DNA of 37,972 bases. Origin: a virus. Made by a program: the position numbers and the translations under genes. Positions 3,789-11,395 of this stretch are shown one piece after another. The DNA lies in IMG/VR virus record IMGVR_UViG_3300036978_000267, positions 1-37,972 of that record; one strand, 5' to 3'. Every line of letters starts with the position of its first letter. Position 1 is the stretch's first letter. The notes beneath the pieces are model-generated. The model made no database searches. It was not told where the DNA came from and saw nothing but the letters and a program-made list of their open reading frames with translations.

Positions 3789-4633
3789 GATGCCACCTCG
3801 CTGTTATAGAATTTGACGTATCTCAAAATAGGATTGCTGCCATGCTCTACCGGAATTTCGACGGGCATGTTGTAACGGTTTTTTGCGTTGATGTAGCCGA
3901 CCTGTCCGTCGCCAGTAGTAATCAGCTTGCGCTCGCCTGTCTGCACAAGCCTGCCAAGCTTTGTTGTCTGGCCTTTTCGGTTTGTCTCACTGCCCTGAAT
4001 AAATTCTTCTTTCACCAGATACAGCACCGCATCGCATTGGCTTGTGTAAATCGACAGTGCTTGGTTGTCCATGTCCATGCTGAACACGCTGTAATCGGCG
4101 GCGGCGTCCGGACGGTTGCGTATCTTCTTGATACCGGTGTGCGCCAGGAAGACGATGCCCATACGCTTGACCGCGCGCAGCTGCTCGCACTTGTAAACAA
4201 ACTCAGCATGCCAGCTTGCCACTTCGGCATAGCCCTTGTGGAAGCCGCCCGAGGCGTCTGCCACGGTGTTGACACCATCGCGGAGTGCGATTTCATGGCC
4301 AAACAGCATGTCGAGGCTGGTAATGCTGTCCACTACTAGCGACGTAAAACCATGTTCAGTGGCGATCAACTCATCCATGATAGAAAGCAGCGTTTCGCGT
4401 GTGCTTTTCAGGTTGCCCACTTCATCCTTTGACGCCTTCGGCAGTCGAGGTAGAACGTTAGGCTTTGCCTCTTCGTCCCAGCTATCGAAAACCGACGCGC
4501 CGTCTTCAGACATAACCATCAGCGCATTCGGGAACATCGCGCCAAGCGTTGTTTTTCCCGTGCCTGGTGTGCCGACGATGGTGATTATCGGCGGTTTGGT
4601 TTTAGGCTTTGCAGCACGTGCAAGATGGCTCAT
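3785..4633 (-). CDS. Sak4-type RecA-like recombinase / AAA ATPase
   Basis: The 282-residue protein has Walker A GTPGTGKTT at residues 21-29 and a Walker B-like strand SLVVDSITSL, in the single RecA-core layout of the phage AAA_24/Sak4 group. Sak4 proteins are remote RecA/Rad51 relatives that anneal single strands. The gene starts one base after the stop of a small HTH gene and overlaps the SSB gene by four bases, so all three are probably translated together. With the YqaJ exonuclease it would replace a lambda Exo/Beta pair. Other AAA_24 proteins have no known function, so the recombinase role leans on the SSB and exonuclease neighbours. Confidence 0.85.
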   Translation of the reverse strand: MSHLARAAKPKTKPPIITIVGTPGTGKTTLGAMFPNALMVMSEDGASVFDSWDEEAKPNVLPRLPKASKDEVGNLKSTRETLLSIMDELIATEHGFTSLVVDSITSLDMLFGHEIALRDGVNTVADASGGFHKGYAEVASWHAEFVYKCEQLRAVKRMGIVFLAHTGIKKIRNRPDAAADYSVFSMDMDNQALSIYTSQCDAVLYLVKEEFIQGSETNRKGQTTKLGRLVQTGERKLITTGDGQVGYINAKNRYNMPVEIPVEHGSNPILRYVKFYNSEVAS

Positions 4634-4634
4634 T

Positions 4635-4811
4635 TCAGGACTCCTGATTCTTGTCTTCTAGGAACTTTTGCAGCGCCTGCACTGTTGACAGCTTAGGGTC
4701 GCGCGCCGCGCCAGACAGCAGATAGTTGATTGTGCCGAGCGATACGCCCGACTTGTAAGCGATTTCCGCTCGGTCGTGCTTGCGGAGTTCGGCGATCAGT
4801 TCTTCTAGCAT
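4635..4811 (-). CDS. small Cro/C1-type HTH protein
   Basis: This 58-residue protein is almost only a helix-turn-helix: MLEELIAELRKHDRAEIAYK, then SGVSLGTINYLLSGAARDPK, the turn and recognition helix of the Cro/C1 (XRE) fold. It is the first gene after the primase and its stop is one base from the Sak4 start. Two palindromic elements, CTAATATTAG (4843-4852) and TTCGCT/AGCGAA (4856-4879), lie in the 55 bases upstream together with a sigma70-like promoter, so it may regulate its own operon. That target is inferred. Confidence 0.75.
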   Translation of the reverse strand: MLEELIAELRKHDRAEIAYKSGVSLGTINYLLSGAARDPKLSTVQALQKFLEDKNQES

Positions 4812-7235: not shown

Positions 7236-7580
7236 TTAAAAACTCCACTTAACGCATTTTTGACAAGCAACCTTGCCCACCCGCACAGCGGTTGGCTTGT
7301 AGTCGCAGATATGCCTACATGAAACCCAGCGGTATTTTTTGTAGCCTTCTTTCGTGCTTTTACCCACCTGGCGCAGACCAATTCTCAAAGCTTGCTTTGC
7401 TTGCAGATCGCTTACGCACTCCTTGCATACGATGCTTTTTTTACGAACAGCGCTGGTGTGTCTTTCACCAACATGCCCGCACTCGATCCACTGGTAAATC
7501 TTGGTTCCAGGGGTATCCCCATCGCCCAACAGGATAAGGCCAGCTGCTAAAGCCTCTTGCCTATGCTTTTCAGTTTTCAT
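7236..7580 (-). CDS. small protein with two CxH...CxxC zinc-binding repeats
   Basis: From ATG 7580 the product is 114 residues and consists of two related units of about 50 residues, each ending in a zinc-type cluster: ECGH...AVRKKSIVCKEC and SCRH...AVRVGKVACQKC. Similar Cys/His modules occur in DNA-binding tails of phage and homing proteins, but I do not recognise a named family. It is the first gene of the replication operon and is directly followed by the primase. Its start codon is buried in a hairpin (7578-7606) and flanked by sequences complementary to loops of the leader RNA, so it is the probable target of that RNA. A TTG at 7613 is an alternative start. Confidence 0.7.
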   Translation of the reverse strand: MKTEKHRQEALAAGLILLGDGDTPGTKIYQWIECGHVGERHTSAVRKKSIVCKECVSDLQAKQALRIGLRQVGKSTKEGYKKYRWVSCRHICDYKPTAVRVGKVACQKCVKWSF

Positions 7581-7606
7581 GGATTCAATCCAAAAAAAAT
7601 CCCATG
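7578..7606 (-). promoter_or_regulatory. start-codon sequestering hairpin of the zinc-repeat gene
   Basis: On the minus strand CATGGGATT (7606-7598) pairs with AATCCATG (7585-7578) with one bulged base; the last three bases are the ATG of the zinc-repeat gene. The loop holds a run of eight T on the minus strand and a weak GGA ribosome site. The same CATGGGA is complementary to a loop of the upstream structured RNA (TCCCATG, 7692-7686), so the two pairings exclude each other. Confidence 0.5.
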
Positions 7607-7619
7607 TAGACAACGCACG

Positions 7620-8390: not shown

Positions 8391-8533
8391 TGGTCGGTAA
8401 CTGGAATGACTTCCCGCCTAGGCCCGGCAAGGTGCAGCCAACTCCCCATCTTGAGTGTTCCGATATTGGCAAGCCGACCATTCCACGCTTCAAGCGTGCG
8501 GTGATTACTGTTGAGCCGGATAAGTCGATATGA
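8390..8533 (+). CDS. short hypothetical protein upstream of terminase
   Basis: An open frame of 47 codons (MVGNWNDFPPRPGKVQPTPH at the start, ending VITVEPDKSI) fills the gap exactly: its ATG overlaps the stop of the membrane protein gene and its own TGA overlaps the ATG of the small terminase gene. The double overlap is the main evidence that it is translated. It is rich in proline and has no domain that I recognise. Confidence 0.6.
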   Translation: MVGNWNDFPPRPGKVQPTPHLECSDIGKPTIPRFKRAVITVEPDKSI

Positions 8534-8955
8534 CTGACAAGCAGTTAACCAAAGAGCAGCAGGCCCGAGCAGATGCTATCTGTGAGCAGGTGGCAGATGG
8601 TTTAACTCTGCGTCAAATTGCTCACGGTTTTGGGGTTAGCTCAAGTACGATCATTGCTTGGGTGACTTTGAACGAAGTGGTTTGCGAGCAGTACGCGCGC
8701 GCGCGCGAGATGGCGTCCGACCTTTTCGAAAACGATATCTACGATGCGGCCATGGCGGTGACGCCTGATACGGCAACTGCTGACCGGGTAAAGATTGATG
8801 CGCTTAAGTGGATTGCTGCGCGTCGCGCTCCGAAGCGTTATGGCGACCGAGTGACTAGCGAGCATGTAGGCGCTGGCGGCGGCCCGATCCTGACCAGGGA
8901 CGTTAGCGACTTATCCGACGAAGACTTGGCGGCATTCATCGCAAGTGATAAGTAA
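8530..8955 (+). CDS. terS: terminase small subunit
   Basis: The 141-residue protein has an N-terminal HTH (VADGLTLRQIAHGFGVSSSTIIAWV, about residues 22-46) for recognising the packaging site and the KWIAARRAPKRYGDR segment common in phage small terminases. The acidic C-terminal tail DLSDEDLAAFIASDK is the likely contact with the large subunit. It sits directly before the large terminase gene, which it overlaps by 11 bases. Confidence 0.9.
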   Translation: MTDKQLTKEQQARADAICEQVADGLTLRQIAHGFGVSSSTIIAWVTLNEVVCEQYARAREMASDLFENDIYDAAMAVTPDTATADRVKIDALKWIAARRAPKRYGDRVTSEHVGAGGGPILTRDVSDLSDEDLAAFIASDK

Positions 8956-11395
8956 AGCAGACGCCGCGCGCGAGCTGTTAGCCAGGCGCAATGCCAGGCG
9001 TAGCTTGCTTGACTTCATTCTGTACCTTGACCCTGAGTACGTTGTAAGCCGGTTTGCGCAAGAAGTGTGCCAAGCGCTTGAGCAGTTCCTTGCCGATCAG
9101 CGCGCGGGACTTCGCCCCATCCTGATCCTGCAAGCCCCGCCTCAGCATGGCAAGCTGCTTGCAGATTACGTTCCAGTATTTACTACGAGAGGATGGAAGA
9201 AACACGGCGACTTAATACCCGGCGACATGGTGTTTAGTCCCTCTGGAAAGCCAATCAAGGTCTTGGCTGTCACAGAAAAGCAACCGGCCAACGTCCGTGT
9301 TGAGCTGGGAAATGGCGAGGTTATTCATTGCCACGAGCGGCACGAATGGACGGTATTTAACCGCGACAAGAAGCGCCAGGAAACGCTAGAGACTATGGCC
9401 ATGCTCAAGACGGGCCGCAGATCATCCAGGCCAAATCCGCTTACCATTGGCATCGAAGCCAGGCGCGGATGTAATTACGTCTATAAGCTTCCAGCCGTTG
9501 CGCCGCTACGTGGTGAGCATATAGCGCTACCAGTTCACCCGTACGCGCTGGGCGTATGGCTTGGCGCTGGAAGCCAGACAAAACCATGCATAAACTATGA
9601 CGCCAAAGACTCAGCCGTCATCCGCGAGCTTGAAGCGCTTGGTTATCCTGTTCGCGCAACGTATACGCACAAGACAACAGGCGTACTCACGGCGACCATG
9701 GATAACCTAACCCCTGGTCTAATCGAATGCGGCGTGTTCGCAAAGTCTTACGGGGTGCGCAATAAGCACATCCCCGATAAATACCTGTGCGCGTCTATTG
9801 AGCAGCGTCTAGAGATGCTGGCTGGCCTTATTGATACGGGCGGCGACACCTATCAAAAGAACGGACGTTTTGTTTTTACTACCGCCGATATCCGTCTAGC
9901 AGATTCTTTATGTGAGCTTGTTTCAACCTTCGGATGGTCATTCTCCAAGGTAACTGAGCAGCCAAAGCTGAGCAGTTCTGGCATTCAGGGCATGTCGGAG
10001 TACTGCGTTGTCGGGTTTAATCCGACCCTGCGCATACCTTGCAGGCTCGCGCGCCAGATTAATACGCCGAGCACACTAAAGCGTCGAGTGGCAATCAAGG
10101 ATATTCGACTAGATGACGCAGGGCATGTAGGTCGCTGCATTCAAGTTGATTCGGATGATGGCCTGTACCTTGTCGGGCGCACCATGCAGCCAACGCACAA
10201 CAGCCAGATAGTTAGCCGTTACCTTCCCGCCTGGCTGTTCGGCCAAGAGCCTGACCTATCCATTGGTGGCCTGTCCTACTCCAAAGACCTGGCGTCCGAC
10301 ATGAACCGCGATGTTCAACGGATCATGCTTAGTCCTGAGTATCAGATGCTTTTCCCGGCTGCCTCGCTGAACGCCAAGCGCGTAGTAACAGTCGAGGTTG
10401 AAGCCAAGCGCAATAGTGACGTGTTCGAAATCGTTGGTCGTAAAGGGCGCTACGTGGGCGCGGGCGTGGGTGGGCCGCTGACTGGTAAGCGCTTAGACAT
10501 TGGCATCATTGATGACCCGATAAAAAACGCTCAGGAAGCGCTCAGCAAGATCGTCAAGGATGGCGTGTGGAACTGGTACATTACAACCTTTACCACTCGC
10601 CTGTCGAAGAACAGCGGTCAGATCATCATGGCAACCAGCTGGGCGACTGACGACCTGTCAGGCCGGGTAATTGAAAGCACAAGTCGTGCCAAGGTTCTAA
10701 AGTTCCCGGCAATCTCGCCTGACGGCCTCGCGCTGGTGCCTGAGCTTCACCCCATAGACAAGCTACTAGAGACAAAGGCGCTCATGTCTGACTACTTCTG
10801 GTCAGCCATGTACCAGCAAAGCCCTATCTCGCTGGGCGGGAACATGTTTAAGGTGGAATGGTGGAAGTTCTACACCATCATGCCTAACCTCAAGTGGCGC
10901 GGTATCTACGCCGACACCGCGCAGAAGACGAAAGAGCAAAACGACTACAGCGTTTTCCAGTGCTGGGGCGAATCATTTGACGGCCAAGCCGTTCTCCTCG
11001 ATCAGGTTCGCGGCAAATGGGAGGCTCCCGAGCTGCTTATCCAGGCGCGGGCATTCTGGAACAAGCACAAGGCGCAAGTCGCTGGCACGCTTCGATCATT
11101 CAACGTCGAAGACAAGTCCAGCGGCACCGGCCTGATTCAGACCCTTAAGCGAGAGGGCGTTCCTGTCATAGGCATACAGCGGTCAGTGGACAAGATCACT
11201 CGCGCCATGGATGCTTCGCCGCTAATGCAGTCGGGCAACGTCCTGCTGCCATCCGATGCACCGTGGATATCGGACTATCTGTCAGAGTTTGCGGCATTCC
11301 CCAGCGGTTCGAATGACGACCAAGTAGACCCCACAATGGACGCAATTAAGGATATCCTTAGCGTACGCAAGATTGACTATAGGGCACTTCTATGA
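8945..11395 (+). CDS. terL: terminase large subunit, interrupted by an in-frame intein
   Basis: The precursor has 816 residues; without the 349-residue intein it is 467, the usual size of a large terminase. The Walker A loop is split: QAPPQHGK (residues 63-70) is followed after the intein by SQIVSRYLP. Downstream are the Walker B-like IGIIDDP and an RNase H-type nuclease domain with IYADTAQ, NVEDKSSGTG and SNDDQVD acidic residues. It is the ATP-driven packaging motor and headful or cos nuclease. The start is GTG at 8945, with 11 bases of overlap with terS; no better start exists nearby. The protein cannot bind ATP properly until the intein leaves, so splicing should be essential for packaging. 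Confidence 0.94.
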   Translation: MISKADAARELLARRNARRSLLDFILYLDPEYVVSRFAQEVCQALEQFLADQRAGLRPILILQAPPQHGKLLADYVPVFTTRGWKKHGDLIPGDMVFSPSGKPIKVLAVTEKQPANVRVELGNGEVIHCHERHEWTVFNRDKKRQETLETMAMLKTGRRSSRPNPLTIGIEARRGCNYVYKLPAVAPLRGEHIALPVHPYALGVWLGAGSQTKPCINYDAKDSAVIRELEALGYPVRATYTHKTTGVLTATMDNLTPGLIECGVFAKSYGVRNKHIPDKYLCASIEQRLEMLAGLIDTGGDTYQKNGRFVFTTADIRLADSLCELVSTFGWSFSKVTEQPKLSSSGIQGMSEYCVVGFNPTLRIPCRLARQINTPSTLKRRVAIKDIRLDDAGHVGRCIQVDSDDGLYLVGRTMQPTHNSQIVSRYLPAWLFGQEPDLSIGGLSYSKDLASDMNRDVQRIMLSPEYQMLFPAASLNAKRVVTVEVEAKRNSDVFEIVGRKGRYVGAGVGGPLTGKRLDIGIIDDPIKNAQEALSKIVKDGVWNWYITTFTTRLSKNSGQIIMATSWATDDLSGRVIESTSRAKVLKFPAISPDGLALVPELHPIDKLLETKALMSDYFWSAMYQQSPISLGGNMFKVEWWKFYTIMPNLKWRGIYADTAQKTKEQNDYSVFQCWGESFDGQAVLLDQVRGKWEAPELLIQARAFWNKHKAQVAGTLRSFNVEDKSSGTGLIQTLKREGVPVIGIQRSVDKITRAMDASPLMQSGNVLLPSDAPWISDYLSEFAAFPSGSNDDQVDPTMDAIKDILSVRKIDYRALL
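9155..10201 (+). mobile_element. class 3 type intein in the TerL Walker A loop, endonuclease apparently dead
   Basis: The intein covers residues 71-419 of the precursor (349 residues). It begins LLADYVPVFTTRGWKKHGDL, so the first residue is Leu, not the Cys or Ser needed by ordinary inteins. It has the three marks of class 3 inteins: Trp in block B (RHEW, residue 135), Cys in block F (GRCIQVD, residue 398) and Thr before His-Asn at the end (PTHN, 417-419), followed by Ser420. A LAGLIDADG domain is present, but both active-site acids are replaced: block C reads LGVWLGAGS (Ala208, codon 9566-9568) and block E reads LAGLIDTGGD (Gly299, codon 9839-9841). Each change is one base from an Asp codon. 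Splicing should work while homing should not. Confidence 0.93.

Follow-up and report, generated by a model that had tools for sequence, protein, structure and literature searches.

The large terminase (TerL) gene of the virus record studied here (37,972 bases, analyzed in full and hereafter called the window) is interrupted by an intein with a complete endonuclease domain, in which both acids of the homing active site are missing. The locus raises the question of whether this intein has ceased to be mobile while it continues to splice, and of why the endonuclease domain has persisted.

A class 3 intein in the Walker A loop of TerL

The TerL gene is followed by portal and head genes, and consists of a single open reading frame (8945-11395, 816 aa) with no frameshift or stop. 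The intein occupies residues 71-419 of the precursor, with APPQHGK before it and SQIVSR after it. The features of the region are the following:

8530..8955, + strand: terminase small subunit (TerS) gene; Pfam Sf6_terminase, E 1.2e-25; PHROG terminase small subunit
8945..11395, + strand: TerL precursor with intein, GTG start; Pfam Terminase_6N and 6C, TIGR01630, PHROG terminase large subunit
8945..9154, + strand: N-extein, ending in Walker A (APPQHGK); gap 0 against intein-free relatives
9155..10201, + strand: class 3 intein, 349 aa, Leu1 to Asn349; from junctions, residue set and empty-site alignment
9155..9376, + strand: N-terminal part of the splicing (Hint) domain, blocks A and B; matches class 3 DnaB inteins 6rix and 6bs8
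9347..9349, + strand: Trp65, block B position 12, of the Trp-Cys-Thr set; invariant in the 86-sequence alignment
9518..10069, + strand: LAGLIDADG homing endonuclease domain, approximate limits; matches PI-SceI, I-Tsp061I and I-DmoI
9566..9568, + strand: Ala138 (GCT), in place of the catalytic Asp of block C (PI-SceI D218); profile alignment
9764..9766, + strand: Lys204, block D, retained; aligned with PI-SceI K301 in the profile alignment
9839..9841, + strand: Gly229 (GGC), in place of the catalytic Asp of block E (PI-SceI D326); profile alignment
10085..10201, + strand: C-terminal part of the splicing (Hint) domain, blocks F and G; sequence and fold matches
10136..10138, + strand: Cys328, block F position 4, predicted branch-point nucleophile; residue set and invariance
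10193..10201, + strand: Thr347-His348-Asn349, block G; residue set and invariance
10202..11395, + strand: C-extein, starting with Ser+1 of Walker A (GK/S); gap 0 against intein-free relatives

Elsewhere in the window, the - strand (7236-7613) encodes a small protein rich in Cys, in which CxxC-like motifs are paired; its coding region overlaps the beginning of the primase gene, and it had no PHROG match.

The initial annotation had placed the intein at 9155-10201, between the Lys and the Ser of Walker A, and comparison with intein-free TerLs bore out both coordinates and boundaries. Across IMG/VR and phage relatives, the uninterrupted sequence is APPQHGK-SDIVSR or APPQHGK-SQIVSR, the alignment gap at the junction being 0, so that the insertion is exact and falls within the Walker A loop. 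The site was empty in all of the closest TerLs found (L067-L079, 76-78% identical over the C-extein), as it was in the more distant TerLs of Vibrio phage XM1 (67%) and Proteus phage RS51pmB (54%). Vacant targets therefore exist in the wider clade, and the earlier suggestion that the intein had become fixed is not supported. The GC content at third codon positions is lower in the intein than in the exteins (0.56 vs 0.67), fitting a foreign origin.

Inteins in phage TerL proteins have been described before. In mycobacteriophages they occur at sites a to g; all five tested for splicing spliced, and both of those tested for cleavage cut an intein-free target (PMC5050341). The TerL1-a intein lies between the Walker A Lys and Thr, the same junction as in the window, and the inteins at sites c, d and e belong to class 3, again as in the window (PMC5050341). 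Unlike the mycobacteriophage cases, the TerL of the window matches Terminase_6 models and has Ser as its +1 residue; and whereas the two tested mycobacteriophage inteins cut DNA, the nuclease acids of the window's intein have been lost.

Splicing residues, active site and fold

Assignment to class 3 follows the marks defined in PMC3196547 and PMC4031507. Position 1 of the intein is Leu, not Cys, Ser or Thr (near relatives have Leu, Gln, Glu, Ala or Asn there), and the Trp B:12, Cys F:4 and Thr G:5 of class 3 inteins are found as W65, C328 and T347 (W135, C398 and T417 of the precursor). His348, Asn349 and Ser+1 are also present, and Trp65, Cys328, Thr347, His348 and Asn349 are invariant in our alignment of 86 sequences. 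The splicing half matches MchDnaB-1 (6rix) and Mycobacterium smegmatis DnaBi1 (6bs8) both by sequence and by fold (Z about 19), and has the Trp-Cys-Thr set in common with them; these two, however, are DnaB mini-inteins without an endonuclease, while the window's intein is full-length and resides in TerL. Every residue named in the initial annotation was recovered, and its prediction of splicing through the block F Cys is supported by alignment and structure: given class 3 membership, Cys328 is the predicted branch point, and the intein is expected to splice.

PI-SceI, the yeast VMA intein, has the same intein plus LAGLIDADG architecture (Z about 27, at about 17% identity), and its D218 and D326 are catalytic residues. 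The window's intein lacks this pair. In the profile alignment Ala138 and Gly229 fall on D218 and D326, respectively, confirming that the block C and block E positions pointed out earlier are indeed the catalytic ones. A single base separates each of the two codons from one for Asp. Among the 85 relatives in the alignment, column 229 is Asp in all, and column 138 holds Asp in 79 cases and Asn in the remaining 6; with such conservation, the changes in the window are not a matter of chance. An active LAGLIDADG homing endonuclease has an acid at both catalytic positions, and here neither has one. Alignment and structure thus agree with the proposed loss of the homing nuclease, and, judging from these residues, the inability of the intein to home is a well-supported prediction.

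A further conserved residue differs at intein position 301 (10055-10057), which is Gln in the window and Lys in 84 of the 85 relatives. We considered this as a third catalytic loss and rejected it: the PI-SceI alignment ends at residue 378, so its placement on K403 of PI-SceI is insecure, and we regard the difference only as a changed conserved site.

Apart from its active site, the endonuclease domain shows little sign of decay. The structure model has a mean pLDDT of 95.1, which remains high through most of this domain, and contains both LAGLIDADG helices (129-138 and 215-229) of the monomeric fold. It aligns with PI-SceI over 324 residues (Z 27.8, 3.3 Å), and also resembles I-Tsp061I (Z 15) and I-DmoI (Z 13). 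The intein is therefore no mini-intein, and its domain has the LAGLIDADG fold, activity aside. Neither profile scores nor branch lengths across the 86 sequences gave a clear sign of relaxed selection over the whole domain: in leave-one-out profiles the endonuclease score given the splicing score ranked 17th of 86 (z -0.9), and on a fixed tree the endonuclease to Hint branch-length ratio ranked 31st of 86 (z 0.36). These values argue against a long neutral decay. At columns conserved in at least 90% of sequences, the window differs at 4 of 35 endonuclease sites (D138A, L221M, D229G and K301Q) and at 0 of 27 splicing sites; three of the 85 relatives have as many endonuclease differences. That two of the four changes fall on the catalytic Asps is suggestive of a loss that began at the active site, the comparison being post hoc and the numbers small. 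An intact fold with no accelerated evolution implies either that the loss is recent or that the scaffold is still useful.

The intein family and the history of the window's copy

We compared 166 distinct inteins from IMG/VR, GTDB genomes and phage records that bear the Trp and Cys of class 3, a total in which the window's own is counted. Contig scanning with an alignment as query gave relatives, whereas a single protein as query gave no match. The acids at the two positions are Asp/Asp in 147 inteins, Asn/Asp in 8, Asp/Lys in one and Asp/Val in one; two have a partly deleted endonuclease, six have no endonuclease aligned at these positions, and the window's is Ala/Gly. These counts are not population frequencies, since near-duplicates are included, and they are biased to intact copies, since two of the scans partly required the block E Asp (two others used splicing motifs only). 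The window's is the only full-length copy that has lost both Asps, so this state is represented by one sequence. The family nevertheless forms a series of active-type inteins, changes of one Asp, partial deletions and mini-inteins. Three class 3 inteins without an endonuclease (L296, L298 and L322) occupy the same site; that of L296 is 147 residues long and splits GK/S as the window's does, its TerL being 42% identical to that of the window over the C-extein.

Copies with Asn at block C (GNG) and an intact block E were seen in L007, L156, L206, L210, L212 and L213, on several separate branches; these are perhaps nickases or half-dead nucleases.

The sister of the window's intein (support 0.88) is the Asp/Asp intein of L134, which is also its nearest full-length relative (51% identical). 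Synonymous sites are saturated at this distance. The C-extein of the L134 TerL is only 40% identical to the window's, and this pattern, together with the empty sites of the closest TerLs, points to horizontal arrival. It also points to a nuclease that was probably active at arrival, the Asps having been lost later. An exact-pattern scan found no sibling copy, and DNA searches found no near match among phages and one short match (71%) among plasmids.

The residues, the insertion junction, the vacant sites in relatives, a predicted fold that is conserved and the series within the family together lead us to infer, with considerable confidence, that a class 3 intein invaded terL by homing, that its nuclease was later lost through point changes, and that splicing was retained. 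The intein would have entered the Walker A codon of terL by LAGLIDADG homing, with both catalytic aspartates substituted afterwards. During splicing, Cys328 would attack the peptide bond before Leu1, the N-extein would be transferred to Ser+1, and cyclization of Asn349 would release an intact GKS P-loop. Unspliced TerL would presumably be unable to bind ATP normally, so that selection for packaging would maintain splicing but not the nuclease. The homing cycle includes a step in which the endonuclease degenerates (PMC8966425), and we therefore place the window's copy at an early point of that stage.

A close precedent is the Pyrococcus horikoshii VMA intein PhoVMA (PDB 7qst), in which the nuclease is inactive while the splicing domain works (PMC8966425). 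As in the window, both catalytic LAGLIDADG Asps are missing and the endonuclease fold is retained. PhoVMA, however, resides in a vacuolar-type ATPase and has a truncated block E, whereas the window's intein is of class 3, resides in a phage TerL, and has point substitutions in an intact helix. The locus is consequently less exceptional than the initial annotation implied: both Asps are indeed gone, as they are in PhoVMA (PMC8966425), and the intein's own family holds all later stages of loss.

Alternative explanations and significance

The main competing account concerns why the domain persists. Catalysis may have been lost while the scaffold is still selected, the splicing domain needing the endonuclease to fold or splice; TliVMA is a reported case of such mutualism, and MvuTFIIB a suggested one (PMC8966425). 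It is compatible with invasion followed by loss of the nuclease, from which it differs only in the reason for persistence, and we consider it possible although rather less than even. In its favor, only 4 of the 35 conserved endonuclease columns differ, two of them being the catalytic Asps, the domain is not accelerated, and the model is confident through most of it; but a recent loss would look identical, and the inteins without an endonuclease at the same site indicate that the scaffold is dispensable in this family. The more specific proposal that a domain dead at its active site is under selection because it contributes to the splicing apparatus of the packaging motor, or regulates that motor by binding DNA, seems to us unlikely; if true, the intein would be a resident, non-mobile component of TerL maturation.

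The other readings are far less probable. The initial annotation had suggested a conditional switch of packaging, with the intein staying unspliced until a signal arrives. The interruption of the P-loop and the retention of splicing residues after the loss of homing would suit a switch, and both oxidation and zinc inhibit a DnaB intein of class 3 (PMC6195587, PMC7360933). The only redox switch of a class 3 intein whose details are understood, that of DnaBi1, is a disulfide between Cys118 and Cys48 (PMC6195587); in our sequence alignment, however, the partner Cys of this toggle is replaced by Ala45. Moreover, an essential host protein needs the splicing residues anyway, and the TerL inteins tested so far spliced readily (PMC5050341). 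We found no positive evidence for a switch and give it very little credence. Equally improbable is an endonuclease still active through other acids, such as the Asp two residues after Gly229 (the motif reads LIDTGGD), or acting as a nickase. Lys204 is retained and the fold is predicted to be intact, but both metal-binding positions have changed, PhoVMA is reported inactive without the two Asps (PMC8966425), and relatives have their Asp exactly at 229. The slightest chance of all is given to assembly or consensus errors behind one or both changes in this metagenomic contig. The intein is known from a single record and a near-identical record was not found, yet an error would have to explain why two independent substitutions both hit the active site and kept the frame, in a gene that has neither a frameshift nor a stop.

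Favoring, as above, homing followed by point loss of the nuclease, we see in one phage gene the loss of mobility before visible decay of the endonuclease domain. Phage TerL proteins were already known to host class 3 inteins and to be interrupted at this Walker A junction, and the double Asp loss of PhoVMA was known as well; the window adds a further, clear-cut instance of an established stage in the intein life cycle and leaves the general picture of inteins unaltered. Its relatives provide empty sites, one-acid losses, partial deletions and copies without an endonuclease as comparison material, so that the family is well suited to the question of whether class 3 splicing benefits from endonuclease scaffolds.

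Some related TerL genes deserve separate mention. In L094 (1243-3652), whose TerL shares 62% identity with that of the window, the Walker A site is likewise occupied by a related intein; both Asp motifs are visible (WLGDG and LIDTDG) and the frame is broken in several places, through decay or sequencing error. The TerL of L099 (IMGVR_UViG_3300044475_000022, about 4001-4700; C-extein about 67% identical) has an empty Walker A site and a different mini-intein of about 110 residues near Walker B. This mini-intein begins with Cys-Phe-Val-Ala-Gly, ends with Val-His-Asn before a Cys, and looks like class 1. Finally, the +1 Ser of the window (10202-10204) is encoded by AGC. AGY codons were found at 55 of the 113 intein-bearing sites with Ser at +1, compared with 3 of 29 intein-free sites, an excess that might stem from co-conversion of donor flanks or from a protective effect against cutting.
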